A DNA stretch of 42,520 nucleotides from contig JABAAB010000057.1 of assembly GCA_014238945.1 (NCBI GenBank), positions 1 to 42,520 on the forward strand, written 5' to 3'. Shown in pieces: positions 3,307 through 31,267 of the stretch. The notes beneath the pieces are model-generated. The model had not been told where the DNA came from, did no database searches, and worked only from the letters and a program-made list of their open reading frames with translations. Position 1 is the first letter of the stretch, and every line of letters begins with the position of its first letter. The DNA is from Lysobacterales bacterium. Its GTDB lineage: Bacteria; Pseudomonadota; Gammaproteobacteria; Xanthomonadales; SZUA-36. The translations under genes and the position numbers were made by a program.

Positions 3307-3340
3307 GCGCGATGCTCCCTTTGACCGGTCCTGCCATTCA

Positions 3341-4726: not shown

Positions 4727-4771
4727 AGTTTACAACTTCCGTAATCCGTCACAATTGGCCAAAAGTTAGAT
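4727..4771 (-). promoter_or_regulatory. Shared box plus promoter, site 1 (M24 operon)
   Basis: On the minus strand the box ATCTAACTTTTGGCC-AATTGT (4751-4771) is followed by 18 bases and the -10 element TAAACT (4727-4732). TTGTGA at the box edge can serve as -35 with a 16-base spacer. The core is a dyad, AC-N2-TTGGCCAA-N2-GT. It is 180 bases upstream of the M24 start. The same arrangement recurs before four other units and, in degenerate form, before a sixth. Confidence 0.8.
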
Positions 4772-4818
4772 GTCTTCATTTCAACGAATTCAAAGCATTA
4801 AGTTGAAGCTGTACGGGT

Positions 4819-5904
4819 CTAATAGATATCACCGTCCATGGCAGAATAGATTTCGCCTTTGAAACCTGCGGCTCTTACCTCCTCCATCAGGGCCGTCGCT
4901 TGGTAGTCTTCACCGCTATTGTAATTTTGTTCATGCGCAAGAACGATGGCCCTGACATTGGCCTCGTTGGCAATCCTGGCCAACACGCCGGGCGAGAAAT
5001 GGAAACGGAATATCTCCTTTTTCTTTTCCTCCACTGTGTTGCCACCCCAGGGTGCATATTGAATATTTTCTTCCGTAACGGTCTCGGTTACCAGGACATC
5101 AGCGTCTTTTGCCGCCCTGACGATATTTGCATGATAGGGCCCGCCATCACCGCTAAACACCACGATTCGGTCCTTGCTTGTGAATCGATAGGCAAACGTG
5201 TCACGCAGCGATGCATGCCGGGTTCGAAATGCCTCGACCCTGACATTGTCATCCCGATACACCAGACCATCTTCCGCAAAAAGGATATCATGTCCCGTCG
5301 CGCGACCGCCGGCGGGGTCGTGGCCATCGCTGATGGCCGCATCAATGTCGATTTTCCAGGCTGAAAAAATATGCTTCACCATGGCTTCGGTGCCTTGCGG
5401 ACCATAAATTTCCTGCTGGATTCGGAATATCCAGTTCAGCGGATTAAGGAGTAATGAAGGAATTCCAACCGTGTGGTCTTGATGCAGGTGGGTCAAAAAA
5501 AGATAGTTAAGTTTTTCCGGAGACAGGCCCGGAGTGAGTACGTCACCGTTGATTAATGCAGCCTTTGCAATCGATCGCCAGATGCCCTCACCGGCATCAA
5601 TCAGGTAGGGCTGGTCATTGACAATCAATAGGTGGGAAGGTCCGGCGCGATATGGGTTGGGCGACGGCATGCCGGTCCCGAGAGTGACCAGTTTGGTTCG
5701 GGTCGTGGCGGGGCTCCGGTTTAGCGGGTTTCTTCCTATGTTCGTTGGCCACGCATCCGGCAGGGTGAGCGGCGTAATGACTGCCGGTTTGACGAACGGA
5801 TCGTTGTTGTATTTGCTCGAGTTGTCGTCGGTCTCAATGTTTGACGGTGTGCACGAACCGAGGGTCAAACTGACCAGCAGCAAAATAATGTGGAAATTGC
5901 GCAC
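4819..5904 (-). CDS. MBL-fold metallo-hydrolase lipoprotein
   Basis: A 361-residue metallo-beta-lactamase-fold hydrolase of the RNase Z-like layout, exported as a lipoprotein. The N-terminus VRNFHIILLLVSLTLGSC has a hydrophobic core and lipobox LGSC with Cys18. Zinc ligands are visible in THLHQDH (His139, His141, Asp143, His144), in the later SGDGG Asp and in VLAHEQN. I chose the GTG at 5904 because it overlaps the stop of the MFS gene as TAGTG and puts the signal peptide at the start; there is no clear ribosome site, which fits translational coupling. The frame extends to 6015, but the added residues lie inside the MFS gene. Coupling to a transporter suggests hydrolysis of the substrate in the periplasm. 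The substrate is unknown. Confidence 0.85.
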   Translation of the reverse strand: MRNFHIILLLVSLTLGSCTPSNIETDDNSSKYNNDPFVKPAVITPLTLPDAWPTNIGRNPLNRSPATTRTKLVTLGTGMPSPNPYRAGPSHLLIVNDQPYLIDAGEGIWRSIAKAALINGDVLTPGLSPEKLNYLFLTHLHQDHTVGIPSLLLNPLNWIFRIQQEIYGPQGTEAMVKHIFSAWKIDIDAAISDGHDPAGGRATGHDILFAEDGLVYRDDNVRVEAFRTRHASLRDTFAYRFTSKDRIVVFSGDGGPYHANIVRAAKDADVLVTETVTEENIQYAPWGGNTVEEKKKEIFRFHFSPGVLARIANEANVRAIVLAHEQNYNSGEDYQATALMEEVRAAGFKGEIYSAMDGDIY

Positions 5905-7319
5905 TAACCCGGAGCCAGGGATGCTCTTTCTTCGCTGACTTTCAGTAGCAATATAGCACCGGTTACAATGAGTATGAGGAGTGACGCAAATCCTATTCGT
6001 TGGGACTGGAACCAACCCGTCATGGTTGCCACCATTAATGGCGCAAGAAATGCCGTCACTGTTCCACTTAGGCCGTAAAGTCCAAAAAACTGGGTTGTTC
6101 TCTCTGGCGGCGATATACGCGCCATCAATGTGCGAGACGTAGAAAGACCTATTAAGGAAAATGCAGCAAAAAACTGGAATGTCAAGAAATAGGTTATTTC
6201 AGCAATTGTTCTGAACACAGGTGCTGCCCAAACGGGTTCTGTGCTGACTCCAATTGTAAATAAAACCGCGTCAGGCTGTACCGATATCAAGATTAGTAAA
6301 AGCAACGACATCATTCCGACGGCAAATTTTAGCGTTACCAGGGAGCCAAATCGATCATCGAGAAAACCACCGATAAATACTCCGGTCATTGCGGATACGG
6401 TTGTACATAGCCCTAATAGCAATAGTGATGTTGTGTCCCATCCAAAGATGCCTGATGCGTAAACACCGCTGAAAATCACAACACCCATCATGCCGTCATT
6501 GAAGAACATGCGAGCCAGCAGGAAGATAGCAACATTTGCATAATGCTTTAGCTGCCTAATTGTGGCCAAAACATCCTGCAAGCCCGAGCGCACATCAGCC
6601 GATAGAGATCGCTTGGACGCCTCGCCATCCGGGGTAAACAACATCATGGGTAACATCGCCAGGAACAGCCAAGCGCCACCAACAGGGCCGACGATTCGAT
6701 CATGTCCATGGGTAGACCGATCAAGACCAAAAAGCGGCTCGTCTGGTATAAAACTCAATTCCATTACACCTGGTAATGCAAACGCAAACAAGACGAAGAG
6801 CAAAAGTATAATTCCACATAAGTTGGCGAGAGCAAATCCCAATCCTGAGATCAACCCGGTCTTCTCCACGGGAGCAACGCTGGCGAGCATGGAGTTGTGA
6901 AAAACCTCGGCGTATCCGAAGGCTACCAAGAACACCAGTATCAGTGCGGAACCCAAGGTCACACCAAGGCCCTCGCCGGCGGGAAGAATCCACCACAAAC
7001 CTATCCCGGCTGCGCCCATAATGCAGTAGCTGACGAGTATCCACGGTTTGCGCCGCCCGATTTTGTCAGCGATCGCACCCATGAACGGCACGGTAAATGC
7101 CATAAAAAGGCCCGCACTGGCGTTGAGCGCTCCAACCACTGTTTGGCCACGAACCGGATCGCCAATCACAACATTACTAAAATATGGAAAGAAGATATAG
7201 ATGACTACGATGATAAATAGCGGCTCGCGCGCTGCTTGTCCTAGCATCCAACTGCTGTAGCCGAGCGGTGATGCCGCCGGCGTTCCCGCCAATGAGAGGG
7301 CTGTGCTCGATTTAGTCAA
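5904..7319 (-). CDS. MFS transporter
   Basis: A membrane protein of about 470 residues with twelve hydrophobic segments. The MFS loop signature appears as GAIADKIGRRKPW between helices 2 and 3. The N-terminal segment (PLGYSSWMLGQAAREPLF) resembles the group of MFS carriers related to Atg22/UMF1. The start is uncertain: an upstream ATG at 7412 lies inside the regulatory box and ahead of the predicted transcript start near 7370, so I use TTG 7319. No good ribosome site precedes it. The stop overlaps the GTG start of the MBL-fold gene. It probably moves the regulon's substrate or a product across the inner membrane. Confidence 0.78.
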   Translation of the reverse strand: MTKSSTALSLAGTPAASPLGYSSWMLGQAAREPLFIIVVIYIFFPYFSNVVIGDPVRGQTVVGALNASAGLFMAFTVPFMGAIADKIGRRKPWILVSYCIMGAAGIGLWWILPAGEGLGVTLGSALILVFLVAFGYAEVFHNSMLASVAPVEKTGLISGLGFALANLCGIILLLFVLFAFALPGVMELSFIPDEPLFGLDRSTHGHDRIVGPVGGAWLFLAMLPMMLFTPDGEASKRSLSADVRSGLQDVLATIRQLKHYANVAIFLLARMFFNDGMMGVVIFSGVYASGIFGWDTTSLLLLGLCTTVSAMTGVFIGGFLDDRFGSLVTLKFAVGMMSLLLLILISVQPDAVLFTIGVSTEPVWAAPVFRTIAEITYFLTFQFFAAFSLIGLSTSRTLMARISPPERTTQFFGLYGLSGTVTAFLAPLMVATMTGWFQSQRIGFASLLILIVTGAILLLKVSEERASLAPG

Positions 7320-7376
7320 CGTTTGGTACTGACATAATTCAGGGCCTTGTAATGCATTGAAGCCAACAGTGAATAC

Positions 7377-7421
7377 AGTGTACAAGATTACCAAACCGCA
7401 ACAATTATCCAAAAGTTAGAT
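7377..7421 (-). promoter_or_regulatory. Shared box plus promoter, site 2 (MFS-MBL unit)
   Basis: On the minus strand the box ATCTAACTTTTGG-AT-AATTGT (7401-7421) is followed by 18 bases and TACACT (7377-7382). TTGTTG at the box edge gives a -35 with a 16-base spacer. The predicted transcript start, near 7370, rules out ATG 7412 as the MFS start codon. Confidence 0.78.
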
Positions 7422-7527
7422 AAGGGCGGTTTAATACGCACGCTCCCCCCACATGTTGTTAAGTACTACGGACAATTGATCTGCATATGAGCTGTAGTAA
7501 AAAACACGCTTTAAAAATTATTAACCA

Positions 7528-7799
7528 TCAGTATTTACTCGATCGGTTCGAAATAATGATGCCATTTTCTCTGGCGCAGGGCGCCCAAAGTGTAACCATC
7601 TGTCGAATTTTAATCGCCTTTTCACCATCCAGATCGTATGGTTTAGCTGGATCGGTTTCCAGCTTGAACAATTGTCATTGGGTATCTTTGTTTGGCCCTG
7701 GCATATAGACAGGATATTGGGACGACTGCTCGGGGCGCCCGCATTCGAGCCTGCGGCATTTGCCAGACAGCCACTTGCCATGGTCACAACAACTCCCAA
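7528..7799 (-). pseudogene. Internally deleted sulfatase remnant
   Basis: The 5' part encodes a signal-peptide-like stretch ending ASGCLANAAGSN and then APSSRPNIL, matching the N-terminus of the intact sulfatase at 11320-13002 (DTPSSRPNILL). After SICQGQTK the sequence jumps, in another frame, to LFKLETDPAKPYDL and ends with RENGIIISNRSSKY, which matches the C-terminus of the intact gene (LFNVEVDLAEQHDL and RDNGVIISDPLSRY). About 450-500 residues, including the active site, are missing. It begins 29 bases after the amidase stop, so it was probably cotranscribed with the amidase. It is a dead relic of a second sulfatase. Confidence 0.8.
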
Positions 7800-7828
7800 T
7801 ATTGCTTTGCCAGGAACCCCTATTAATT

Positions 7829-9286
7829 TTATTGCTCATCGCCGTCAGGAGCAGACGCATGGACCCGAGGAATCCTGTCTGCCCAGGGGTACGCTCTCTC
7901 CAGTTGTCCGGCCAACTGAAACAGTGTGCCTTCATCGCCGTAACGGGCGGCAAACTGTATCCCCACAGGGAGACCCGTAATTGAATTAAACAGTGGCACG
8001 GACATGGCAGGCTGACCGGTTGTGTTGTAAATAGACGAAAAGGAACCAAACTCGCTGAGTTTGACAAACCACTCTTCGACGCTACCGGTAAAGTCGTTCA
8101 TTGAATAAAGACCATGTTCAATCGGTAGTTTTGATAAGGTCGGTGTTAACAAAATATCATAGTGATCAAAAAAAGGGGCTGCCTGGCGCGATATCTGGTT
8201 GACGGTTTCCAGGGCTTTGACAAAATCCTCTCCAGACACAGATTTGCCAAATTTATAGCTGGCCAGCGTGATCGTTTCGAGTGTGTCTGTGTCGATGTTG
8301 CGCCCGGTCAGTGACGCCATCATGTCGCTCATGGATGTACAATTTGCGGCCCAAAGAGTAGCGCTGGATTTGTTAAAGGCCTCTTCGTCCCACGCGGGCG
8401 CGGCCTGCTCGACGAAGTGGCCGAGTTCTTCACACAAGGCTGCGGCCTGCTCGACCAAGCCGGCAACTTCTGGATCGACGGTTTGACCGCCGTTGGGCAC
8501 CTTGCTAAAGGCAATCATTAGCGAAATGGGATCTTGTTGACACTCGTCCAGATATGGGCGTTGGGGAACTGGCGCCCCGTAAGGATCCCCGGGCAGATAG
8601 CCGTGGGTCATATCCAGGGCCGCGGCGCTGTCGCGCACAGTACGAGACAGCACGTGTTCAGTCGCCAATCCGTTGAAACCATCGCCCCCGGGTGCCAGAG
8701 AAATGCGTCCCCTTGTCGGCTTCAGGCCAAAGATGCCACAGCAGGCCGCGGGAACGCGGATGGAACCACCAGCATCGTTACCGTGGGCAAGTGGCACCAT
8801 ACCTGCAGCCACGCTCGCCGCCGCACCGCCGCTGGATCCACCGGCAACGCGCCCGGTTTCCCAGGGATTGCAGGTAGGACCACGCAAGACACTCTCTGTC
8901 GCACAGGAAAAACCAAACTCCGGACAGGTAGTCCGGCCCAAATTGTTAAAACCGGCCCGGTTGTAGCGCGTCATCAGTTCTGAATTGAAGGGAGCGACCA
9001 TGCCTTCCATCAATCGGCTCCCTGCCTCCATTCTCTTGCCCGCTTCCATGATTGCCAGGTCCTTGATCAAGAAAGGCACGCCATAAAATGCCCCATCTGA
9101 CAATTCGGATGCACGGACCGCCGATGCACGCTCCGGGTAGGTTTCAATCACCGCATTGATCTGCGGATTTATTTTGGCAATCGCATCCAGCGCAGTTTGC
9201 GCGAGCTCGTCGACGGAGACGACGTTGTTTCGAATAAGTTCGGCAAGACCGAGACCATCGTATTGAGTGTAGTCTGAAAGTTTCAT
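7829..9286 (-). CDS. Amidase (amidase signature family)
   Basis: A 485-residue Ser-cisSer-Lys hydrolase. Lys75 lies in FLIKD, the glycine-rich GGSSGG at 149-154 holds the middle Ser, and the nucleophile is Ser175 in DAGGSIRVPA. The family hydrolyses amides to acid and ammonia or amine and includes allophanate hydrolase, but no allophanate-specific domain is present. No signal peptide is seen. The start at 9286 (MKLSDYTQYDGLG) aligns with the usual amidase N-terminus; the 14 upstream residues overlap the promoter and are rejected. The predicted transcript begins only about seven bases before this ATG and there is no ribosome site, so the message may be nearly leaderless. It belongs to the boxed regulon. 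Confidence 0.92.
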   Translation of the reverse strand: MKLSDYTQYDGLGLAELIRNNVVSVDELAQTALDAIAKINPQINAVIETYPERASAVRASELSDGAFYGVPFLIKDLAIMEAGKRMEAGSRLMEGMVAPFNSELMTRYNRAGFNNLGRTTCPEFGFSCATESVLRGPTCNPWETGRVAGGSSGGAAASVAAGMVPLAHGNDAGGSIRVPAACCGIFGLKPTRGRISLAPGGDGFNGLATEHVLSRTVRDSAAALDMTHGYLPGDPYGAPVPQRPYLDECQQDPISLMIAFSKVPNGGQTVDPEVAGLVEQAAALCEELGHFVEQAAPAWDEEAFNKSSATLWAANCTSMSDMMASLTGRNIDTDTLETITLASYKFGKSVSGEDFVKALETVNQISRQAAPFFDHYDILLTPTLSKLPIEHGLYSMNDFTGSVEEWFVKLSEFGSFSSIYNTTGQPAMSVPLFNSITGLPVGIQFAARYGDEGTLFQLAGQLERAYPWADRIPRVHASAPDGDEQ

Positions 9287-9299
9287 AGTCAGCCGATAG

Positions 9300-9345
9300 A
9301 GTTTATGAGATTTAGCAAAGCGCGACAATTAACCGAAAGTTAGAC
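9300..9345 (-). promoter_or_regulatory. Shared box plus promoter, site 3 (amidase)
   Basis: On the minus strand the box is GTCTAACTTTCGG-TT-AATTGT (9325-9345), then 19 bases and TAAACT (9300-9305). TTGTCG as -35 gives a 17-base spacer. Two positions of the most conserved half differ from the other sites. The box sits within the 3' end of the MFS relic frame. Confidence 0.77.
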
Positions 9346-9575
9346 GTACTTCGCTTGTGCAATCCCATGCCAATCAATGTGAGCGCCGTGGGTGTAATCA
9401 CGCCATTCACAATACCGGTTATGATAAAAGGTGCTGCGGGCGTCCATGCATCGAATAGCAACCCACCGATCTTTGTAGCAAACGAAATTCCGATCGCGCC
9501 AAATAGTGTGAAAAGGCCACCAACGGCTCCTGTATTCAGGCAAGCAGATACGCCGCCCTTTTTCAATTCAGTCAA
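9312..9575 (-). pseudogene. MFS transporter C-terminal remnant
   Basis: The frame reads like the last two membrane segments of an MFS carrier: LFGAIGISFATKIGGLLFDAW, with the usual Gly-Gly-x-x-Phe-Asp turn, then APFIITGIVNGVITP. The preceding ten helices are absent from the upstream sequence on this strand, and the frame runs on into the amidase promoter box. It is a relic, probably of a transporter once paired with the amidase. Confidence 0.6.
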
Positions 9576-10084
9576 ACCCTGTTTTTGACCACAACTCCCT
9601 GTCGACCCACACCTGCCGCATTTTTCGCAACTTTTCCCTGACGCTCACGACAACGGCCCTTGGCCAATGCCGCCTGGGGCGGTTTGAAGCCGGCCCCTGC
9701 AGGCAGACTTCGCAGGGCCACAATCCTCCACTGCTCATGCAGTTTCTCATGCGCTCACCAGCCTGTCCCTGATCCAACTGATCGCATGGCTGCAACACAC
9801 GGGTGCTTATGCTCTCTACAGCTGTGATTTAAACTGTCTGCCTGTATCATGGTTTCTCCTTACCATGCGACTTGCCGGCTCACGCTTGGGAGTTCGTATG
9901 AGATTTCTGGAACGGTCAAACTCCGGCTGCCTCCCCAGCAGAGCTGGTGGGTGTCGCTTTCTTGCCGGCAGGGGAATTTCTCTTCTGAAAGAGAATTATG
10001 TGTCCAGGTAATGCTTATTGTATCAACCGAATCTTGAACATGATTAAATAACCTTTAACTGCTTTTAATCAGAGCCAGAGATAC
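9576..10084. other. Gene-free spacer between MFS relic and cytochrome c
   Basis: No recognisable gene is seen. Short frames on both strands (9568-9798 minus, 9849-10037 plus) are rich in Cys, Arg and Pro and look like chance or decayed DNA. This stretch, next to a truncated gene, may be the scar of an insertion or deletion. The promoter of the cytochrome gene should lie in its last 100 bases, but I see no strong consensus there. Confidence 0.45.
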
Positions 10085-11068
10085 GTGAACAAAATCATCC
10101 AGATTATTTTAGCTGCAATAGTTTTGCTCATCGCGTTATTTGCAAGCTATGTTCAATTTTCCTGGGATAAAGTGTATGACGCGCCTTACCCGGAAATCTC
10201 TGCAAGTACGGATCCTGCACTTATTGCCCGAGGGAAATACCTGGTTTTTGGGCCAGCCCGCTGTGCAACTTGCCATGTGCCAATGGATAAAATTGTTGAG
10301 GTAGATAAGGGATTGGAAATACCACTAAGCGGCGGTTGGGAATTGACTATTCCCGCAGGCACGTTCAGGGCACCCAATATTACACCTGATAAAGAAACAG
10401 GTATTGGAAATCTGAGCGATCAGGAGTTGGCCAGAATAATGCGTTATTCCGTGGGTAATAATGGCAGGGTCATCTTTCCGTTTATGCCCTTCCAGGAGAT
10501 GAGCGGTGAGGACCTTACAGCCGTCATCTCCTATTTACGCTCACAACAACCGGTGAAACATGAGGTTGAACGCTCAAAATTTACCTTTCTAGGAAAAGTA
10601 TTATCTACTTTTGGGCTGGTTCCACCAGTGCAACCAAACAGTCCCCCACCGGAATCAGTGGCTATTGATGCCACAATTGAATATGGCGCATATTTGGCCA
10701 ATAGTGTGTCTGACTGCGCTGGCTGCCACACCCAGAGGGATCAAAAAACCGGTGAACCAATCGGAGCTCCTAGCGCTGGTGGTTGGTATCTACCTGCGGG
10801 CATACAAAGCAACGGGTTCTCATTTGTTACCCCCAACCTAACACCTGATGAGGAAACAGGTATTATGGCCGGCTGGAATGAAACCGCTTTTATCAGCAGG
10901 TTCCGGGCCGGTAGGATTTATGCAGGTTCGCCAATGCCATGGGGTGCCTTTTCAAGAATGAATGAGGTGGAACTGAAAGCAATTTATAGATATCTTAAAT
11001 CGCTCGATCCAGTCAGCAATAAGATAGAGAAGGTTGTTTATGCGCCGGGGGAGGAAGTGCCACAGTAA
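10085..11068 (+). CDS. Membrane-anchored diheme cytochrome c
   Basis: A 327-residue periplasmic electron carrier tethered by an N-terminal membrane helix (residues 4-22). There are two heme c sites, CATCH at 60-64 and CAGCH at 211-215, each in a cytochrome-c-like module containing a PNITPDKETGIG or PNLTPDEETGI segment. This repeat layout is typical of the cytochrome subunits of quinoprotein or molybdenum dehydrogenases, which pass electrons to the oxidase. No matching dehydrogenase is adjacent. The start is GTG at 10085, which places the hydrophobic anchor immediately after MNK. It is the only plus-strand gene in this part of the window and has no shared box. Confidence 0.9.
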   Translation: MNKIIQIILAAIVLLIALFASYVQFSWDKVYDAPYPEISASTDPALIARGKYLVFGPARCATCHVPMDKIVEVDKGLEIPLSGGWELTIPAGTFRAPNITPDKETGIGNLSDQELARIMRYSVGNNGRVIFPFMPFQEMSGEDLTAVISYLRSQQPVKHEVERSKFTFLGKVLSTFGLVPPVQPNSPPPESVAIDATIEYGAYLANSVSDCAGCHTQRDQKTGEPIGAPSAGGWYLPAGIQSNGFSFVTPNLTPDEETGIMAGWNETAFISRFRAGRIYAGSPMPWGAFSRMNEVELKAIYRYLKSLDPVSNKIEKVVYAPGEEVPQ

Positions 11069-11319
11069 TTTTTTATCAAAGCAAAACAGGGTCAGATCGT
11101 ACCCCGTTACCGGCAATCAATCCAGCGGAGCAGTACATGAGTCATTGTGTATTGTGAGTTCCGCGAAGCCAGACCTGTAGGCCGCAACGCAAGTGAATCT
11201 GAATTAGCACCGTTAACCAAGAGAGGATGTTGATCCTCTGATCTGAGGGATCATATTTCCCATTCTATCGCCCCTCAATGCGCTGCTGGTTCTATCGCGC
11301 TACTGGAATCGCCTCACGA
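11069..11319. other. Convergent intergenic region with hairpins
   Basis: This separates the cytochrome gene from the sulfatase stop. It contains GGGTCAGATC followed by ACCCC near 11091-11105, a phrase often seen beside IS200-like or REP-associated transposase genes; no such gene is present. AGAGGAT and ATCCTCT (11222-11239) form a seven-base-pair hairpin without a T tract, and a second overlapping GATCCTC/GAGGGATC pairing is possible. A bidirectional transcription barrier is possible but not demonstrated. Confidence 0.35.
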
Positions 11320-13002
11320 TCAATAACGGCTCAACGGGTCCGAGATGATGACACCATTGTCTCTTTCGTAGTCCTTCCACAAATCAATCATTTGCTGGAG
11401 TTTTGCCGGTTGCTCAGCGGCTAAATCATGTTGTTCAGCCAGATCGACCTCCACATTGAACAGCTGCCACCGCGCATCTCTGTCGGGTTCCGGCATAAAC
11501 ACAATCTTCCAGTTGCCTTGGCGAATCGCGCGTTTGTTGAATAACTCCCAGCCCATCACCTCATTGGCGTCATGCACATACTCAGCCTCTCCCCGCAGAA
11601 AAGAAAGCATGGATTTGCCCTGCATGGGCAACACGTCTTTATTTTTGTAACGCGTCCCGGGATGCTCAATACCGGCCAACTCCAGAACGGTTGGCATCAC
11701 GTCCATTACCGATACAAAGTTGGCAACGACCTTTCCTTCTTTCACTACTTCAGGGTAACTGACAAACGCGGGAGCACGAATACCGCCCTCGGTGGTATAG
11801 GCTTTGTACCGGCTAAAGGGAGCCATCCCGGCCCGCGCCCAATTGGGACCGTACCAAAGGTAGGAGTTGGCCTTGCCCATGTTGGCATAACTGTTGTCGC
11901 AACACTGCTCGACCCAGTCACCAACTGCGGGCCAAATCCGCTCCAGTCGATGGCCTTCGGCGCCATTGTCTGACATAAAAACAATCAGTGTGTTCTCCAG
12001 CTGTCCGTTAGTGCGGAGCGTATCGAGGACACGACCGACATGATGATCGATGTCGTCCACCATTGCCGCGTAAATTTCCATCTTACGCGCCTCCACCTTT
12101 TTCTCGTGCTTGCTCAGCTGATCCCAGGGGAGCTCACCGTGCTCTCCCGGTGCGCCTATAACGTGCTCAGGTACGAGACCGTGAACCTTTGCACCCGCCA
12201 ACCGCTGCTCATGTAACTTGTCATAGCCTGCATCGTAACGACCGCGATATTTTTCTATCGAGGCATCCGGCGCCTGCAACGGCCAATGGGGAGCGGTGTA
12301 CGCCAGATAGGCGAAGAACGGCTTGTCAACCTGTCGCTGGTCGCGAACGAAATTCGCCTCAATATACTGGATCATTTTGTCGCTGTAGAACTTCGTCGAG
12401 TAAAAATCTCCAGGCAAATCAACCAGTTCACCATCCTCGCGGTATAGCGCTTTGCCGGGAACGAAACCCAAATCGTCAAAGTGTCCACCACCTGCCTGAA
12501 GCAAAACGAAAGATTTTTCGAATCCGCGAGCGGCGGGGCCTTGCGTTTTCGCGAGTCCCAGGTGCCATTTGCCTGTCATATAGGTGTGATAACCCGCGTC
12601 TCGAAGCAGTTCCGCAAGCGACACAATTCGGGAATTCAGGTAACCTTCGTAACCGGGCTGGCCCTTTTGATTGGGCATCAGTGACTCTGCCATGCCGCCC
12701 AGCCCCACCCGATGATGGTCGATACCGGATAGCAGCATTGCCCTGGTTGGCGAGCAGGTAGACGCGGTGTAGAAACTGCTAAAGCGCACCCCGGCGCGGG
12801 CCAATTTGTCCAGGTTCGGAGTATTGATCTCACTGCCGAAACTGCCCAAGTCGGTAAACCCCATATCGTCCACAACGATCAACAGGATATTGGGGCGACT
12901 GCTTGGGGTATCCGCTTTTACCGTCGTTACTGCGTTTGCCCAGCAGCAAATCCCCAGAGACAAAACAATCCCCAATCTGGCCTTGGCAGGAGTCCATTTC
13001 AT
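11320..13002 (-). CDS. Secreted arylsulfatase
   Basis: A 560-residue type I sulfatase of the alkaline phosphatase superfamily. A signal peptide covers about residues 1-30 (hydrophobic GIVLSLGICCWANA). The active-site motif CSPTR has Cys83, which must be oxidised to formylglycine; the maturation enzyme is not in this window. Calcium-binding and catalytic landmarks are VVDDMGFTDLG, GKWHLG and SDNGAEG. It should cleave sulfate esters in the periplasm. ATG 13002 gives a standard signal peptide, but no ribosome site is clear, and ATG 13023 or GTG 13038 remain possible. It follows the TonB receptor by roughly 100 bases with a hairpin between, so cotranscription is uncertain. Confidence 0.9.
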   Translation of the reverse strand: MKWTPAKARLGIVLSLGICCWANAVTTVKADTPSSRPNILLIVVDDMGFTDLGSFGSEINTPNLDKLARAGVRFSSFYTASTCSPTRAMLLSGIDHHRVGLGGMAESLMPNQKGQPGYEGYLNSRIVSLAELLRDAGYHTYMTGKWHLGLAKTQGPAARGFEKSFVLLQAGGGHFDDLGFVPGKALYREDGELVDLPGDFYSTKFYSDKMIQYIEANFVRDQRQVDKPFFAYLAYTAPHWPLQAPDASIEKYRGRYDAGYDKLHEQRLAGAKVHGLVPEHVIGAPGEHGELPWDQLSKHEKKVEARKMEIYAAMVDDIDHHVGRVLDTLRTNGQLENTLIVFMSDNGAEGHRLERIWPAVGDWVEQCCDNSYANMGKANSYLWYGPNWARAGMAPFSRYKAYTTEGGIRAPAFVSYPEVVKEGKVVANFVSVMDVMPTVLELAGIEHPGTRYKNKDVLPMQGKSMLSFLRGEAEYVHDANEVMGWELFNKRAIRQGNWKIVFMPEPDRDARWQLFNVEVDLAEQHDLAAEQPAKLQQMIDLWKDYERDNGVIISDPLSRY

Positions 13003-13071
13003 AGGGTTTGTTGTGCGAGGCATCCAGGGGTGAACCACACCATTTCAACCCTTTGTGACTGACAGGAAACA

Positions 13072-13100
13072 GGCAGCGGATGCTGCAAGCACCCGCTGCC
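13072..13100 (-). terminator. Possible terminator or attenuator after TonB receptor gene
   Basis: GGCAGCGG (13072-13079) and CCGCTGCC (13093-13100) pair perfectly over eight bases with a 13-base loop, just after the receptor stop codon. The downstream tract on the minus strand (TGTTTCC) is only weakly T-rich, so termination may be partial and let some transcript reach the sulfatase. Confidence 0.45.
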
Positions 13101-13107
13101 CGCCCGA

Positions 13108-15621
13108 TTAGTAGGCGCCACCGAGGGCGTAGGTTAGCTGCAGGCCGAATCGAGCACCGCGCTCGCGACCGATACCACCCGCGTCGAATACCGGGGCCAG
13201 GCTCCTGCTCAGGAAACTGAAAGCGTTGGTGTGTTGACGCCGCTCATCGGTGACATCACGACCATAGACGGCGACTTCCCACCTGCCATCCGGTCGGGCA
13301 ATCGCAAAACGCAAGTCAATACGCATCCAGTCATCCACCTCACTCAGCGGATCGCCATTAACGCCGGCGATAGAGTAGCCGTCACTGAAAATCATGTTTG
13401 CGCTGGCGCGGACTTCAAAGCCGCCCATCCTGGCATGGTACTCCGGTTGCAGGTTTAGCGACCAGTCCGGTGCGTATGGCAGGGTCAGGCCGGATGCATC
13501 CAGGTAGAACCCGCCCGGAACGTCCGGGTCGGGGATACACCTTTCCGTCGGGGCGATCTTGGCTTCCAGGCTATTGCACGTTGAACCAACGTAATCGTCA
13601 TATTTCGCCTCACCATAGGCGCCCGCAAAGCCGAGGGAGAAGTTCTCGGCAATCGCCCAGCGACCATCGATCTCAATACCCGTGGTATGTGCTTTCGCAG
13701 CATTCTGGGTCTCGAACTGCCCGGTGAAATTGTTGAGTATAGTGACCTGCAGATCGGTGAAGTCCGTGTCGTAGTACGACACGTTCAACGACAGCCTCCC
13801 ATCGAGCAGCAACGCTTTGATCCCAGCTTCCCAGCCTTCCGCCTGCTCCGGCTTATAACTAAACGGATTCGGAACAGCGCCACCAATTGGCGGCGACTTG
13901 ACGAATCCGCCGGCCTTCAGAGCTTCTGCGTATTTGGCGTAAATCATGACGCCATCGGTGGCGTCCCACTGAAAACCAACTTCCGGCAGAAAGTCGTTGG
14001 AATCGGCTGTTCCCGATACCGGCGGCCCAAAGGCGAAAGGTGTTTCGAACTCAGTGCCACCGATAGGCAGGCGCGCGAGTTGCGGGTTCTCGGTCCCGGT
14101 TTTGTCGATACTGGTATAACGACCACCAACGTTGATCCGGAAAGTATCTGTCACATTAAACGTCGTATTGAAAAATGCAGATATCCATCGGGAATTTTCC
14201 ACCAGCGGACCACCAAAGCTGACCGCACTCCACACGGTAGGATCCAGCAAGGGGTTCGGCGGAGCCCCAAAAAAGAAATTCGGAATATCAAACAACCAGG
14301 GCAGGTGCACGGCGATCGACGTCGTCAGATCATGTTCCTGATAATACGCACCGACCAGCCAGGAAAAGCGTTTATCCTGGGACGAGGTAAAACGGATTTC
14401 CTGCGAAATCTGCTCGAAATCTTCAGAGCGTTCGCCAACAAATACGGCGAAGCTACTCATATCCGGATCCAGGATGTCGTGTTTGTCGTATTGCACGAAG
14501 GAGGTTTGCGAAGTCATTACAATTCCGCTGTCGCCCAAATCCCAGTCAAACGCCACCAGCGCAACGTCCGTCTGCTGGTCACGCGCTTCTTCTTCATTGA
14601 AGATCCGCACGTTATTCAGACCACGGGCAACCGGGCTGAAAGGAAACGGAGCACCCCAGTAGTTAGGATCGCCGAACACGGCACCGCTGGCCGCATTAAG
14701 TGCATCCATCACCGCCCGCACATCCTGTGCGCCGCCAGAGCCGACTATACCGTCCAGCGTAGTCAAATCGATACCATTGTACGCAGCGTCCAGCGCACAC
14801 AGGGCGCTAATTCCCGGGGCAAGGGGGATGAAAGCGATACTGAGAAAAGGAGTTGTTTCGCAGCGGGTATATTCACGCGGCACACCAAGCTGGGAGACAT
14901 CCTGATGCTCATACTTGAATGTCAGTTCAAAATCGTCACTTGGCGCCCACACGCCGAGTACCCGTGCACCCCAGTTTTCCTTGACTCCGAGCTGCTCGCC
15001 GGTAAGCACATGTTCATAGCCGACGTCACCGAGTTCGTAGTAGCGTCCAGAAACGCGAATTCGGAATGTATCCGATAACGGACCACCGAAAGCGGCCTCG
15101 ATGCTCAGCTCTTCATCGGTGCCGTAGGACGCCATTGCATACCCTTCAGACTCCTCAGCAGGACGACGGCTGAAATAACTCAGTGCGCCCGCGGTTGCGC
15201 TCTGGCCGGCAAATACGGGCTGTGGACCACGCGCCACCTCGACACGCTCCAGGTCAAAGAAGCCGTTCTGGCTCAAATTATCGCGACCGTAATAAACCCC
15301 ATCGTGGAATTGCGCGACCGCCTGCTCAAAGGCCTCATTGGCAACCGTGGTACCGATACCACGCATAAAGAGATTTTGACCGGTAAGATCATCCGACATG
15401 AGCAAATTCGGCACGAAGGTGGACATATCCTCCATGTCGGAAAAACCGGCGGCCTGTATTGCTTCACCTGAAAACGCCAGTATCGATATCGGCACATCCT
15501 GTATACTCTGTTCACGTTTCTGTGCGGTAACGATGACCTCTTCCAGTTCCTGTGAGTATAGTGGAGATGCAATCAGGCCAGTTAAAATTAAACCCAAAGC
15601 AATCTTAACGTTCTTATACAT
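13108..15621 (-). CDS. TonB-dependent outer-membrane receptor
   Basis: An 837-residue outer-membrane transporter. A signal peptide (MYKNVKIALGLILTGLIASPLYSQ is broken here at position 20: MYKNVKIALGLILTGLIASP, then LYSQ) precedes the TonB box and plug start EEVIVTAQKREQS. The plug includes LFMRGIGTT and ERVEVARGPQPVFAGQSATAG. The barrel ends with FGLQLTYALGGAY, a final aromatic-rich strand. Size and plug motif match receptors that take up large or hydrophobic organic substrates, not only siderophores. It is read from shared box site 4 with a leader of about 168 bases, and is the natural entry point for the regulon's substrate. Confidence 0.94.
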   Translation of the reverse strand: MYKNVKIALGLILTGLIASPLYSQELEEVIVTAQKREQSIQDVPISILAFSGEAIQAAGFSDMEDMSTFVPNLLMSDDLTGQNLFMRGIGTTVANEAFEQAVAQFHDGVYYGRDNLSQNGFFDLERVEVARGPQPVFAGQSATAGALSYFSRRPAEESEGYAMASYGTDEELSIEAAFGGPLSDTFRIRVSGRYYELGDVGYEHVLTGEQLGVKENWGARVLGVWAPSDDFELTFKYEHQDVSQLGVPREYTRCETTPFLSIAFIPLAPGISALCALDAAYNGIDLTTLDGIVGSGGAQDVRAVMDALNAASGAVFGDPNYWGAPFPFSPVARGLNNVRIFNEEEARDQQTDVALVAFDWDLGDSGIVMTSQTSFVQYDKHDILDPDMSSFAVFVGERSEDFEQISQEIRFTSSQDKRFSWLVGAYYQEHDLTTSIAVHLPWLFDIPNFFFGAPPNPLLDPTVWSAVSFGGPLVENSRWISAFFNTTFNVTDTFRINVGGRYTSIDKTGTENPQLARLPIGGTEFETPFAFGPPVSGTADSNDFLPEVGFQWDATDGVMIYAKYAEALKAGGFVKSPPIGGAVPNPFSYKPEQAEGWEAGIKALLLDGRLSLNVSYYDTDFTDLQVTILNNFTGQFETQNAAKAHTTGIEIDGRWAIAENFSLGFAGAYGEAKYDDYVGSTCNSLEAKIAPTERCIPDPDVPGGFYLDASGLTLPYAPDWSLNLQPEYHARMGGFEVRASANMIFSDGYSIAGVNGDPLSEVDDWMRIDLRFAIARPDGRWEVAVYGRDVTDERRQHTNAFSFLSRSLAPVFDAGGIGRERGARFGLQLTYALGGAY

Positions 15622-15795
15622 GGATTACTCCCTGCTGATGTATGTGAACTGGATTTCCAATCCCGACAATTAATATTATCTTGGAAGTATAACCACAGAT
15701 TGAATATTCGTATTCCCATTTGATTTTCATGAAAAATGATTAATCTGTGAGTTTCATTATTGGTTCTGTCGCCCGATATTACAGGCAATAGGTTA

Positions 15796-15841
15796 AGTTT
15801 AGAAATTATTATAAGTCTGAACAATTGGCCAAAAGTTAGAT
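15796..15841 (-). promoter_or_regulatory. Shared box plus promoter, site 4 (TonB receptor)
   Basis: On the minus strand the box ATCTAACTTTTGGCC-AATTGT (15821-15841) is identical to site 1. It is followed by 19 bases and TAAACT (15796-15801). TTGTTC gives a -35 with a 17-base spacer. The dyad AC-N2-TTGGCCAA-N2-GT is intact. Confidence 0.82.
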
Positions 15842-15875
15842 ATAGGTATTGTTTGTTCAATTAAACAAACAGCAT

Positions 15876-17609
15876 TCATGGAACAATTCCGCTTTCAAAC
15901 ACGACCTTGCCTTCAAACACTGTAAGCAACACCCTGATTTCGCTCACCTCAGTAATGGGTATTGCAAATATATTCCGGTCCAGAACAACAAAATCAGCAT
16001 ATTTACCCGCTTCAATTGACCCGGAAACATTTTCCTTCTTCATCGCTACGGCCCCGTTGCGGGTATATATCTGAATTGCCTGTGCAAGCTCAATTGCCTG
16101 TTCAGCCCAAATCTGCTCTCCCGCATTTGTGTAAGGGTTTCGCCGTGTGACCATGGCTTCGATTCCGGGCCAGGGATTTGGATCAGGGGAAACGGAGGGC
16201 CAGTCGGATCCGAAGATTACCAATGCGCCTGCCTGCAGCAGGGATTTTATCGGGAAGATTCGCTTGCCCCTCATCTCGCCCACTGCCTTGCCCGCGGCAA
16301 TGCTAAGCGGGGATGGATACCAGATAACCGGAGACATCTCGGCGGCAACATTCAATTGTCTGAACCTTGGAATATCATCCGGGTGAATAAATTCCGCATG
16401 GGCTACTTCGTGGATTAAATCGCTATTGTTATTTGACTCACGTGCTGCCTCGATTGCATCCAGTGACACCTGTACGGATCGGTCACCCGTCGAATGAATC
16501 TTGACTGATAAACCCTGGGCATCAAGCTGGCTAACATCCAGTTTGAGTTGCTCCGGCGAATGAAGCAATATCCCGCTAAAGTTCTCACCATGGCTCTCGT
16601 CGGGTACATAAGGTTCGAGCATGGCCGCTGTCCGGGTCGGTGGAATACCGTCGAGGACGATCTTGGCAAAGTTGGGGTCATGTCTGTCCCCCTGATAGAT
16701 GGCCCGCTGCGCTATGTTGTCCTTCTCTTTTTCCGATGCTTCTGCCCACTCATTTTCAGTCGCTGCAGCCCAGGAATATTTCCAGGCCAAACTAGATGCG
16801 ACCCGCATCGTCAATTGCCCGGATTTATCCAGCGCACTGTATGCCCTCAGTGCATAATCATGGACGAGCGCATCCTTGGCTGAAGTCACACCCACTTTGT
16901 TCATCTCCGATATGGACCAGCGTAATGCCTCTATATTCTGGCTGTCGCTGTAAGCTGGGATAAGCTTCAACGCATCATAGGCTGCATTATTTTGTAACTC
17001 CCCCGTTGGTTCACCATGGGCATCTTTTTCAATTTCACTACTTCCCGGCGCCGAGCTATTTTTGGTAATTCCCAGGAATTCCAGGCCTTTGGAATTAAAC
17101 AAGGCGCCGTGCGATGTTAGAACGTACACGGGGTGATCGCGAGTGGCCTGGTCAAGCAGCGATTTATGCGGCACGATATTGGATTGCAAAAATTCAACCG
17201 GCCACCGTCCACCGCGTATCCATTGTCCTCTGGGAGTATTTTTGGCGCAGTTCTTAAGTGTATTAACGATTTCGTCGATGGTATGGGTAATCGGAAACCC
17301 GCATTGCAGGAGTTCCTTCTGGCCCGCATCCATGGGATGTGCATGTAAATCATTGATACCGGGCGTTACCATACGACCTTCGAGGTCAATGATCTCCGTG
17401 GCCGGTGTGATGAAGGCCTGTATTTCCTCCATGGACCCAACATGAACGAATTTACCATTACTTATTGCGACAGCCTGTGCCCAGTCATGGGAGTCGTTTA
17501 CGGTATATATCTTTCCATTTTTGTACACCACATCTGCTGATTGCGCATAAACGGAAGAACCCAACAGGAAAGTGCATAAAATGCTCGCGATCGTTAAAAC
17601 GTGATTCAT
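15876..17609 (-). CDS. Exported YtcJ-like amidohydrolase
   Basis: A 577-residue metal-dependent hydrolase of the amidohydrolase 3 group. A signal peptide (hydrophobic TIASILCTFLLGSSVYAQ) places it in the periplasm. Metal-site landmarks are DLHAHP with His89 and His91, KIVLDGIPPTRTAAM, the HSTGDRSV histidine, and GSDWPSV. Relatives hydrolyse exocyclic amide or cyclic C-N bonds, but substrates are poorly known. ATG 17609 is chosen because CAGGAG lies 11 bases upstream and the signal peptide begins there; TTG 17636 is the alternative. It is transcribed from shared box site 5, divergent from the LuxR-type regulator. Confidence 0.88.
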   Translation of the reverse strand: MNHVLTIASILCTFLLGSSVYAQSADVVYKNGKIYTVNDSHDWAQAVAISNGKFVHVGSMEEIQAFITPATEIIDLEGRMVTPGINDLHAHPMDAGQKELLQCGFPITHTIDEIVNTLKNCAKNTPRGQWIRGGRWPVEFLQSNIVPHKSLLDQATRDHPVYVLTSHGALFNSKGLEFLGITKNSSAPGSSEIEKDAHGEPTGELQNNAAYDALKLIPAYSDSQNIEALRWSISEMNKVGVTSAKDALVHDYALRAYSALDKSGQLTMRVASSLAWKYSWAAATENEWAEASEKEKDNIAQRAIYQGDRHDPNFAKIVLDGIPPTRTAAMLEPYVPDESHGENFSGILLHSPEQLKLDVSQLDAQGLSVKIHSTGDRSVQVSLDAIEAARESNNNSDLIHEVAHAEFIHPDDIPRFRQLNVAAEMSPVIWYPSPLSIAAGKAVGEMRGKRIFPIKSLLQAGALVIFGSDWPSVSPDPNPWPGIEAMVTRRNPYTNAGEQIWAEQAIELAQAIQIYTRNGAVAMKKENVSGSIEAGKYADFVVLDRNIFAIPITEVSEIRVLLTVFEGKVVFESGIVP

Positions 17610-17712
17610 ACGCGCAATTGCTCCTGAATTGGTCAATGTGATTTAGCCACGGGCAGCCCATGCCACAATCAATATAAACCTTCCACAAATTCCGTTCGAT
17701 GGTTAATGGAAA

Positions 17713-17758
17713 AGTTTAGAAAACTTTAATAACCGAAACAATCAACCAAAAGTTAAAT
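17713..17758 (-). promoter_or_regulatory. Shared box plus promoter, site 5 (amidohydrolase / luxR intergenic)
   Basis: On the minus strand the box is ATTTAACTTTTGG-TT-GATTGT (17738-17758), then 19 bases and TAAACT (17713-17718). TTGTTT gives a -35 with a 17-base spacer. It lies in the divergent region between the amidohydrolase and the LuxR-type gene, 57 bases before the regulator's start, so it could also control the regulator itself. Confidence 0.77.
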
Positions 17759-17814
17759 AACAGGACCCAGGAATCTTAACAAGAGTAATTTCCGGGCCAT
17801 ATCGGGAGGAAATG

Positions 17815-18663
17815 ATGTCCGCATTGCTTCTGGCTGAAAGTGCCATTAATTACGATGCAGTACACTATTATGTTAACCTTCAATGGCGATTAGAAAACTC
17901 ACCTGAGCAGATAAAATTAGAAGTTAACGCTGGATCTTATAGACCGATGATCAATTATCTACAACTAACTTCTCATGGTCGCCGACATAAAATAAAAACA
18001 ATCAAATTTGTTGAGAAAAGTATTGAAATGCTGTTCTCAGTTTCGCAGGCGAAATCAGCTGCTTTTTATCATATTGATGAGAACTATCAAACCAATGAGT
18101 TCACGCTGTACAATATTTCATCCACTATCCATGATGAGTATATAAATCGGTTTGCCGAACTGGATCCACTCAACCCCAAACTCCATGCAACAAATTCCAA
18201 CCGTGTTTTAAGCTATCGCAAGGTTGTGGAAAATAATTCTGACGGTTCAACATTTATTGAAGAGTTTCTGGAACACCACGGATTAGGTGATGCTGTGGAG
18301 ATGTTTTTTCGAAAAGGGGGTGCAATTTTTGCCGGTTTTTCACTTTTTCGGGGGGGCCAACCAAAGTTCAGTGCAGAAGATCTTGATCTGTTACGGCGCA
18401 TTCATCCTTTTTATGAATACACACTACAAAATATTTTTCTCCCTTACCGGGAATTGGAAAGAACCAGGCTTGCGGAAGATTATTCCCTGACACCAAGGGA
18501 AATCGACATTGTTGACTTGATACGATCGGGTGCTTCAAATAAACATATCGTCAGGTTTCTCGACATCAGCCTGGGTACAGTCAAGGCCCATTTGGTGCAT
18601 ATTTTTGAAAAGGTTAAAGTGAAAAACAGGACTGAATTGGTCTCAGTATTATTCCTTGATTGA
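17815..18663 (+). CDS. LuxR-family transcriptional regulator
   Basis: A 282-residue DNA-binding regulator. The C-terminal LuxR/NarL helix-turn-helix begins at about residue 225 (LTPREIDIVDLI) and runs through the recognition segment SNKHIVRFLDISLGTVKAHL. The N-terminal 200 residues have no receiver domain or ATPase motif; the FSVSQAKSAAFYHIDENYQ and AGFSLFRGG segments suggest a GAF-like or other ligand-sensing fold. ATG 17815 is favoured over 17812 because GGAGGA ends four bases before it. It lies between box sites 5 and 6 and is the only regulator gene in this half of the window, so it is the leading candidate to bind the shared box. Its sequence is visibly more AT-rich than the operons around it. 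Confidence 0.9.
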   Translation: MSALLLAESAINYDAVHYYVNLQWRLENSPEQIKLEVNAGSYRPMINYLQLTSHGRRHKIKTIKFVEKSIEMLFSVSQAKSAAFYHIDENYQTNEFTLYNISSTIHDEYINRFAELDPLNPKLHATNSNRVLSYRKVVENNSDGSTFIEEFLEHHGLGDAVEMFFRKGGAIFAGFSLFRGGQPKFSAEDLDLLRRIHPFYEYTLQNIFLPYRELERTRLAEDYSLTPREIDIVDLIRSGASNKHIVRFLDISLGTVKAHLVHIFEKVKVKNRTELVSVLFLD

Positions 18664-18670
18664 TTTTCCT

Positions 18671-18717
18671 CTCAACCTTTTGGCCGATATCTACCTTCCG
18701 TAAAGTAAATTTATACT
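18671..18717 (+). promoter_or_regulatory. Degenerate shared box, site 6 (MoaF-SDR unit)
   Basis: On the plus strand CTCAACCTTTTGGCC-GATATC (18671-18691) matches the box consensus at about two thirds of positions, including the CTTTTGGCC core, and has the same orientation relative to its gene. TATACT (18712-18717) follows one or two bases further away than the -10 elements of the other sites. The -35 is weak. Confidence 0.5.
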
Positions 18718-18773: not shown

Positions 18774-19595
18774 ATGAAAAATAATGAAATAAAATGGGAA
18801 GAGGTTGAAAAAATTAAAGATAGTCTCGGTGAAAATAAGCTCCCAGCGACGGATCAACTGGCCGGACAGGGTTTTACATTTTATTTTTTAAACGATGGGT
18901 TGGTGATGCATTATGAAATCTCCGGTAAACATACACTGACCTGGAATACCCTGCATGGATTGAATGCAGGAGAATCGGGTGAGGAACACTACGAAGCAGT
19001 CTGTGTCGCCCCCGGCATTTTTCTAATCACCTATTCAAAAAGAGAAGACCCACTGGTCTCAGTATCCATTGCCATGGATCTTGAAAGCGGAAGGGCAACA
19101 TTCCTGATTGGCAGCATGCCAAAACTTGAAGACACCTATACGGATCTGATCGCCAGAATGAAACAAGATCTGGATTTAAGCCCTGTTAAAGTCAAATTTC
19201 TACATGCAAATGTAAATCCGGACTCCACTGACAAACCGGTCATTCCCCATGAGAGAACAAGTGACCTGGTCGGTAAGCGTATTAAGTATACCTACGGTGA
19301 TGAAGGTGTTTACGAGCATATTTATTTGAGCGAATTGTTTTTTACATGGCATTGTCTTTCCGGACCGGAAAAGGGATTGGCCGATACCGAACGATGTGAC
19401 TACATTAGTATCAGTCCAGAGGTTTATCTGTTTTCGTGGCGTGAGAAGACTGTGCCAACCTTGGGAGTTGTACTTGTCAATGTCAACGAAATGCATAGTA
19501 ACGGAATGCTCTTTGGTATAGACACCGATACTGGAGAACCGATCCATTTCAATGTTGGCGCAAAGTGTCAATTATTAAATATCACAAGCTATTAA
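18774..19595 (+). CDS. MoaF-like protein
   Basis: A 273-residue soluble protein with two similar halves. Each has a calycin-type small barrel pattern: GQGFTFYFLNDGLVMHYEIS with HTLTW and EHYEAVCVAPGIFLITYSK in the first, and VGKRIKYTYGDEGVYEHIYL with FTWHCLSGPEKG and YISISPEVYLFSWRE in the second. This matches the N- and C-terminal domains of MoaF, named from the monoamine regulon of Klebsiella, whose biochemical role is unsettled. ATG 18774 is used; the frame is open back to the LuxR stop, but those residues overlap the predicted promoter. It is followed by the SDR gene after 21 bases. Confidence 0.8.
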   Translation: MKNNEIKWEEVEKIKDSLGENKLPATDQLAGQGFTFYFLNDGLVMHYEISGKHTLTWNTLHGLNAGESGEEHYEAVCVAPGIFLITYSKREDPLVSVSIAMDLESGRATFLIGSMPKLEDTYTDLIARMKQDLDLSPVKVKFLHANVNPDSTDKPVIPHERTSDLVGKRIKYTYGDEGVYEHIYLSELFFTWHCLSGPEKGLADTERCDYISISPEVYLFSWREKTVPTLGVVLVNVNEMHSNGMLFGIDTDTGEPIHFNVGAKCQLLNITSY

Positions 19596-19616: not shown

Positions 19617-20411
19617 ATGTATAAACATCTCGACAAAAAAGTAGTGCTAATAACTGGCGGAGGTACTGGTATTGGTGCAGCTATCGCAAAAAGGTTTGCT
19701 GAAAGCGGGGCGTCGGTGGCCGTTACTGGACGGCGATCAGGGCCCATTGAGAAAATTGCTAAGGAACTTGATGGTCTTGCGATTACTGGAGATACGACCA
19801 AACAAGCTGATTGTGACTCTGCTGTTCAACAAACAATCGATCGTTTTGGTGGGCTCGATGTCGTGATCGCTAATGCAGGCATAATGGCTGTAGGCGATGT
19901 GGTATCGCAGAATCTGCATGAATGGGATGAAATCATTGATATCAATGTATCCGGCGTGATGCAAATTGCCCGATCTGCCATGCACGCCATGATTGACCGG
20001 GGAAAAGGTTCAATCGTTAACATTTCTTCGGTCGCAGGCTTATCAGCAGCTGCGGAATTGGCGGGTTATGTAACCAGTAAACATGCTGTCATAGGGCTAA
20101 CAAAATCCATCGCCATAGATTATGGAAAATACAACATCAGAGTCAATACACTTTGTCCGGGTTGGGTCAGAACACCCATGTCCGAAGAAGAAATGGCCAC
20201 ACTTGCAAAAAATAAAAACATTAGTAAACAGGCGGCGTATGATTTAACGGTCAAATACTTGCCGCTGCAACGCATGGCGGAACCAAATGAAATTGCGGCT
20301 TGTGCAGAATTCCTTGCTTCGGACGATGCCTCTTTTGTTACTGGAGCAACCTTGGTTGTGGACGGTGGAGGAGAAATAGTGGACGTAGGTACACTGTCTT
20401 TTTCACCTTAG
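19617..20411 (+). CDS. Short-chain dehydrogenase/reductase (SDR)
   Basis: A 264-residue classical SDR. The cofactor motif TGGGTGIG is at 13-20, NAG at 86-88, and the catalytic Ser138, Tyr151 and Lys155 are in place (NISSVAG and YVTSK). The C-terminal DDASFVTGATLVVDGG is standard. It should interconvert an alcohol and a ketone or aldehyde with NAD(P)H in the cytoplasm. RR at 39-40 after the second strand hints at NADP preference, which is inference. It is cotranscribed with the MoaF-like gene; SDR and MoaF-like genes often travel together in catabolic clusters. Confidence 0.92.
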   Translation: MYKHLDKKVVLITGGGTGIGAAIAKRFAESGASVAVTGRRSGPIEKIAKELDGLAITGDTTKQADCDSAVQQTIDRFGGLDVVIANAGIMAVGDVVSQNLHEWDEIIDINVSGVMQIARSAMHAMIDRGKGSIVNISSVAGLSAAAELAGYVTSKHAVIGLTKSIAIDYGKYNIRVNTLCPGWVRTPMSEEEMATLAKNKNISKQAAYDLTVKYLPLQRMAEPNEIAACAEFLASDDASFVTGATLVVDGGGEIVDVGTLSFSP

Positions 20412-31127: not shown

Positions 31128-31192
31128 AACCAATCTTCTCCAATCGTCTGTTTTCGTTGATGTGTTCCCGCACTTGCGATCATGCCTGTGAG

Positions 31193-31210
31193 TGTATAAT
31201 ATATTATACA
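31193..31210. promoter_or_regulatory. Perfect 18-bp palindrome, probable operator
   Basis: TGTATAATATATTATACA is a perfect inverted repeat in the divergent gap between the PuuR-like gene and the TonB receptor gene. It contains TATAAT in each direction, so a bound regulator would cover the -10 of either promoter. The -35 elements are not clear on either side. Confidence 0.7.
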
Positions 31211-31267
31211 GTCCACGGTGCCCAGACAATGCACTGCAAAATTATATAGTCTTTACGGAGAGACCCC

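Follow-up and report, generated by a model that had tools for sequence, protein, structure and literature searches.

Does the box that recurs ahead of catabolic genes in a Lysobacterales contig belong to the LuxR-type regulator encoded among them, and does it join these genes in one regulon? The stretch analysed, here called the window, comprises the 42,520 nucleotides of contig JABAAB010000057.1 (C23 in our numbering) from assembly GCA_014238945.1. The window is the entire contig, and the assembly has 4.85 Mb in 126 contigs and is 98% complete. Judged from the sequence, the answer is a local regulon of the MoaR kind, real and sharply defined, with operators that are partly diverged. The boxes would be operators of the MoaR-family LuxR/GerE-type regulator at 17812-18663, which would jointly activate six transcription units; we put the probability of this reading at about 0.83.

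Five boxes were found on the minus strand at the positions proposed in the initial annotation (Table 1), and its account of the -10 elements was right as well: 18 or 19 bases follow the box, and the hexamer is TAAACT at four sites and TACACT at the box at 7401. The copies at 4751 and 15821 are identical. In 100 dinucleotide shuffles of the window the box was matched 0.01 times on average, with a maximum of 1. A matrix built from the window first pointed to Azoarcus, where two copies that face outward lie between the divergent DUF1329 and MoaF genes; it then gave matches in many loci, ahead of moaF and moaE and of genes for permeases and oxidoreductases.

The motif was also learned with the window excluded, a design meant to avoid circularity. 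The training set consisted of 18 regions, each spanning 330 bases around the start of a moaF- or moaE-like gene that had been picked by protein homology, and de novo motif finding was carried out by expectation-maximisation. The best motif, TCATCCTTTCGGTCGATA or its complement, was present in 16 of the 18 regions. When 85,006 window positions were scanned with this motif, derived solely from other genomes, the six sites took ranks 1, 2, 3, 6, 6 and 9, the sixth site (18671) scoring 26.6 bits. None of 1000 column-permuted matrices equalled this result, the best of them having a worst rank of 1042. Ten non-redundant regions led to the identical motif (log-likelihood 86.7, compared with 47.0-56.2 in 12 resamples), by which the six sites were placed at ranks 1, 3, 4, 7, 9 and 10. 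By these ranks, the sixth site represents the family operator in its canonical form, and the five boxes are a local form that has diverged. The initial annotation had included this sixth copy as a degenerate one; the site is real, but it is far from degenerate, being of the canonical family form and ranked first by a motif that had never seen the window. By family operator we mean the motif computed here and not a published defining feature; a literature search, with the original Klebsiella papers outside its reach, found no description of a MoaR-family operator.

Loci carrying the regulator together with MoaF and/or a MoaE-like SDR were found in plasmid records of Azoarcus, Pseudomonas, Klebsiella, Burkholderia and Paracoccus, and likewise in genomes including G910, G1063, G934 and G1093. 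For counting, 22 MoaR-type loci were used, namely 14 regions taken from plasmids (13 of the 17 records, four near-copies being omitted) and 8 of the 20 genome places outside the own genome, mostly chosen by score. These contain 22 matches of at least 19 bits, distributed over 13 loci, where 0.3 would be expected from resampled sequence. In 43 control loci there was one such match, on plasmid pZM21 (L038), where it precedes a moaF gene by 60 bases; a further four, at 15-19 bits, all fell in loci that had been picked for similarity to the box, two of them at those very sites.

The distance between operator and -10 element is a second property of the family. Every match of at least 15 bits in the 22 loci, selected on the 18-mer alone, was taken into a set of 25 non-window sites, where two near-palindromic L069 sites were counted in one orientation each. 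The mean -10 score of this set is 2.8 at offset 21 (at best -4.1 at the others of the 43 offsets), and NANNNT is present at offset 20-22 in 20 of the 25 sites as against 99 of 925 control windows. The window sites have their -10 elements at offset 20-22, as in the family. For a transcript start seven bases past the hexamer, the centre of the family dyad would fall at about -42.5 to -44.5. At luxI the lux box overlaps the -35 region near -43 and the LuxR-type activator contacts the polymerase, an arrangement that the window resembles in both the operator position and the GerE-type helix-turn-helix. The family motif itself differs from the lux box.

The dyad axis of the family lies at 8.5 of the 18-mer, corresponding to 9.5 of the box. 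At this axis the 21 distinct family sites show a complementarity of 0.60 and three invariant pairs, compared with 0.43 and no invariant pair at axis 12.5, and the symmetry is clearest in G1063: ATCAACCGTTCGGTTGAT. A subset of 19 of these sites gave 0.61 and 0.41. The dyad that had been put forward for the boxes, AC-N2-TTGGCCAA-N2-GT, did not hold up, as it is present only in the two identical copies and its GGCC axis (12.5) is not conserved in the family. The five boxes have weak symmetry on every axis tried (0.30-0.43) and depart from the family form chiefly in the right half, where RATTGT gives a TTGT -35. The proposal that TTGT serves as the -35 element agrees with all five local boxes, but it does not describe the family in general: outside the window, TTG is found at the -35 position in 1 of 25 sites, and the sixth site is also without it.

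In the regulator, Pfam at E<=1e-3 found no domain besides GerE. This means that neither the autoinducer-binding domain of N-acyl-homoserine lactone (AHL) quorum-sensing LuxR proteins, by which the LuxR acting at luxI differs, nor the receiver domain of NarL/FixJ-type response regulators was found by Pfam. NCBIfam matches are confined to residues 175-282. In blastp against nine relatives (31-34.5% identity over 203-226 residues, E 9e-40 to 1e-27) the alignments begin at about residue 57-86, so the homology reaches well outside the helix-turn-helix, and an alignment with seven relatives has invariant residues from Y86 to E163, also outside it. The LuxR of pZM21, the tenth protein compared, gave no match. 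Among the homologues listed by tblastn against plasmids is the 'monoamine regulon transcriptional regulator' of K. aerogenes, with 34.5% identity over residues 82-282. Two further genome-contig loci matched the regulator by the helix-turn-helix alone and were set aside. The view of the initial annotation, a local regulon under a neighbouring LuxR-type protein positioned beside the polymerase, is supported by this MoaR homology, by the window-free motif that finds the six sites and by the family-wide distance from operator to -10.

The sites, their confinement and phase, the homology and the common motif are computational results; binding, activation, inducer and transcript starts are inferred by us as follows. 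The regulator would sense an amine or a related compound, the inducer probably being an amine or an amine-yielding compound, and would bind near -43 as a dimer whose DNA-binding domains, lying against the -35 region, would aid RNA polymerase in using the TAAACT-type -10, and six units would be switched on together: moaF-SDR(-PAS), amidohydrolase, TonB receptor-sulfatase, amidase, MFS-metallo-beta-lactamase (MBL) and M24-luciferase-like monooxygenase (LLM)-DUF1989. The site ahead of moaF would retain the family operator, and the other five would carry a local version whose right end has merged with the TTGT -35. Operator 5 lies in the divergent gap between the amidohydrolase and the regulator gene, so autoregulation is possible.

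The MoaR monoamine regulon of K. aerogenes is like the window in its homologous regulator, its adjacent moaF and moaE-like genes with a sulfatase nearby, and the operator motif and phase ahead of moaE. It differs in that the other targets here are the amidohydrolase, amidase, TonB receptor, M24/LLM/DUF1989 and MFS/MBL genes, and in that five of the window's operators have diverged. The order in K. aerogenes is moaF, moaE, arylsulfatase pieces, atsB and regulator. A sulfatase is near the regulator there and in G910, as in the window, where the regulator adjoins MoaF and SDR and the distance to the sulfatase is about 5 kb. The window sulfatase is 38-41% identical to those of the K. aerogenes and G910 loci; it is Cys-type (CSPTR), whereas in G910 the enzyme of the Klebsiella-like cluster, encoded beside a radical-SAM gene, has SAPAR. 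In G934, amidase and MFS genes lie between regulator and MoaF. With the family matrix, the K. aerogenes sites reach 19.2 bits at moaE, 19.9 at the transporter and a weak 7.2 at atsB, and those of the single G910 cluster reach 22.8 at a flavin adenine dinucleotide oxidoreductase, 12.4 at an amino-acid permease, 8.9 at atsB-sulfatase and 19.7 at moaE-moaF. The window sulfatase is the second gene behind operator 4, and the Klebsiella atsB sites are weak. MoaR is reported to be a positive regulator of moaEF and atsBA, and maoCA is likewise reported as a MoaR operon. Judged by site scores, moaEF is well tied to the family operator, atsBA weakly and maoCA not at all.

A number of results weigh against the proposed regulon. 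The motif was missing from 2 of the 18 training regions (the K. variicola and Paracoccus SDR regions), and 9 of the 22 MoaR-type loci have no site of at least 19 bits; 8 of these 9 are also without a MoaF match in the stretch examined. With the family matrix the five boxes score just 13-16 bits, and little of the family dyad is left in them. The Burkholderia sites are partly redundant, and the 25 family sites correspond to 21 distinct ones. Sites ahead of atsB reach just 7-9 bits, and a 2-mismatch pattern that also caught one atsB site is near its genome-wide control rate (6 against 4); the weakness of these sites slightly lowers our confidence. In G910 the copper amine oxidase locus has no operator, the best site in 12 kb having 10.1 bits. 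Finally, PMC8546723 places the LuxR solo PfluR113, from subgroup D of the fluorescent pseudomonads, next to two operons, one for moa-like proteins and another that includes an oxidoreductase, reports that it represses one neighbouring operon, and treats PfluR113-type solos as relatives of the AHL LuxRs. PfluR113 is a LuxR-type protein beside moa-like genes, as in the window, likened here by description and not by protein sequence.

It is thus conceivable, though unlikely, that the same regulator binds these sites as a repressor and masks the -35 region until an inducer releases it. A fixed phase near -43, however, is typical of an activator such as LuxR at luxI, even if the operator does overlap the -35 position. 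The five boxes hold a usable TTGT -35 that a repressor could mask, but 24 of the 25 non-window family sites are without TTG there, so their promoters would be weak unaided. PfluR113 provides a case of repression beside moa-like genes, against which stands the description of MoaR as a positive regulator.

Activation by the neighbouring regulator is also favoured over the notion that another protein reads the boxes, or that an alternative sigma factor uses them as extended promoter elements, the LuxR gene being incidental. We regard this as quite improbable. The five boxes are closer to one another than to the family operator and have parts of the -35 and spacer in common, but the motif that recovers them was learned beside MoaR-family genes elsewhere. 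Furthermore, the regulator is the sole family-profile match at E<=1e-20 in its genome (7 of 22 first-look candidates were scored), and the sites keep to its surroundings. When two mismatches are allowed, the box is found in the own assembly at the five window places and nowhere else, and the reversed control at none. A looser pattern has five exact matches in this assembly, namely four of the boxes and the sixth site, and none outside the window; with one mismatch it has 14, consisting of the 17738 box and 13 places outside the window, where its reversed control has 14. Many genomic copies unlinked to these genes, which the initial annotation had named as a refutation, were searched for in the own assembly and not found. 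A slightly degenerate box with up to two mismatches was matched in 29 of 200 related genomes, own included, and once in nine same-genus genomes together. It is very improbable that a small promoter element, duplicated or mobile, gave rise to the five boxes without their having a regulator in common: they are highly alike and have spacer letters partly in common, but similarity drops outside the stretch from box to -10, the copies stand at unit starts and nowhere else in the assembly, the sixth copy matches foreign operators, and spread by duplication would be compatible with an operator role.

How the operator-bearing genes came together is suggested by the distribution of the regulator. A single-sequence search for orthologues gave the own protein only, in 151 relatives (E<=1e-15), 398 genomes of the order (1e-12) and 369 of the class (1e-15), the absence from the class samples holding only at the sensitivity of such a search. 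An alignment profile of the regulator family has matches in 18 of 398 phylum genomes, own included and several from the same class. No homologue was found in viral contigs. MoaF_C was found in the own genome only among 369 class genomes, 50 relatives were without a match to the M24 enzyme at E<=1e-60, and the amidase was matched (40-45%) in 5 of 50 relatives. As the nine same-genus genomes have neither regulator nor M24 enzyme at the thresholds used, and the regulator is without a relative in the single-sequence order and class searches, the catabolic island may have been acquired horizontally. More tentatively, with the odds somewhat against it, we propose a rewiring within one lineage, where the regulator kept the family operator solely at moaF and five newly recruited units have in common a second class of operator that is merged with a -35 element; one regulator would then read two grades of site and might switch the units in order.

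Table 1. Candidate operators and genes of the window; operator ranks are from the scan with the window-free motif
Feature	Position	Strand	Description	Rank
Operator 1	4751..4771	-	exact consensus match; upstream of M24-LLM-DUF1989 unit; 18 bases, then TAAACT	6 (joint)
Operator 2	7401..7421	-	exact consensus match; upstream of MFS-MBL unit; 18 bases, then TACACT	9
Operator 3	9325..9345	-	2 mismatches to consensus; upstream of amidase; 19 bases, then TAAACT	3
Operator 4	15821..15841	-	exact consensus match; upstream of TonB receptor-sulfatase unit; 19 bases, then TAAACT	6 (joint)
Operator 5	17738..17758	-	2 mismatches to consensus; upstream of amidohydrolase; 19 bases, then TAAACT	2
Operator 6	18671..18691	+	CTCAACCTTTTGGCCGATATC; upstream of MoaF-SDR unit; 20 bases, then TATACT	1
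MoaR-family LuxR/GerE-type regulator	17812..18663	+	283 residues; Pfam GerE E 1.5e-14	
MoaF homologue	18777..19595	+	Pfam MoaF_C 1.9e-47, MoaF 2e-25	
SDR dehydrogenase, MoaE-like	19617..20411	+	39.5% identity over 243 residues to annotated MoaE of K. aerogenes	
PAS-domain open reading frame	20488..20895	+	Pfam PAS_4	
Amidohydrolase (Amidohydro_3)	15876..17609	-	unit 5; Pfam	
TonB-dependent receptor	13108..15621	-	unit 4, first gene; Pfam	
Sulfatase	11320..13038	-	unit 4, second gene; Pfam; Cys-type motif CSPTR	
Amidase	7829..9286	-	unit 3; Pfam; 41% identical amidase adjoins MoaF in G934	
MFS transporter	5904..7412	-	unit 2; Pfam; listed start overlaps operator 2	
Metallo-beta-lactamase fold protein	4819..6015	-	unit 2; Pfam; listed start; overlaps MFS gene	
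M24/creatinase-like enzyme	3341..4570	-	unit 1; Pfam	
Luciferase-like monooxygenase	2413..3348	-	unit 1; Pfam	
117-residue open reading frame	2028..2381	-	unit 1	
DUF1989 protein	1326..2003	-	unit 1; Pfam	
DUF1989 protein	653..1294	-	unit 1; Pfam	

The true start of the MFS transporter is probably further inside the listed reading frame. The PAS-domain reading frame is possibly the last member of the MoaF-SDR unit, co-transcription being suggested by position. In the unit list of the initial annotation the TonB unit was named without its sulfatase gene. To judge by its targets, the regulon may serve uptake (TonB, MFS), the release of sulfate and acyl groups by sulfatase, amidase and amidohydrolase, and subsequent degradation; these three enzymes, TonB uptake and the DUF1989 proteins may share one kind of substrate. 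An uncharacterised 20-kb island thereby becomes a defined candidate regulon. It offers a testable operator and promoter geometry for LuxR-type regulators beside moaF and amine-catabolism genes in proteobacteria, and two operator classes beside one regulator would be a natural case of operator divergence.

At the amidase promoter (9286-9345) the predicted -10 TAAACT is just 13 bases from the likely ATG, so the mRNA would be nearly leaderless. Beyond the box, TTGTNNCG is common to four of the five local promoters (boxes 4751, 7401, 9325, 15821 and 17738); such common letters hint at shared descent or extended contacts. The remainder of the contig (21230-41770) contains hydrolase, FKBP and DUF1611 genes, and by eye a second TonB-receptor gene and a divergent XRE-cupin regulator at 30573-31229; the family matrix has weak matches only in this part, 13.9 bits at 29699 and 13.3 bits at 34512.

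The regulator frame of K. aerogenes NCTC10006 is broken near its start (L007 5915-6600) and its sulfatase is annotated as two pieces (L007 2522-4256), whereas in G910 each of the two is one intact frame. A second MoaR-type regulator is encoded on a different contig of G1063, with near-palindromic operators (L069 7995-8012 and 10405-10422) ahead of permease and porin genes. Additionally, weaker relatives of the operator (12.8-15.8 bits) were seen in enterobacterial clusters at L042 12302, L009 5674 and L043 9859; some of these clusters are for 4-hydroxyphenylacetate, and the L042 site is ahead of a deacetylase-like gene.

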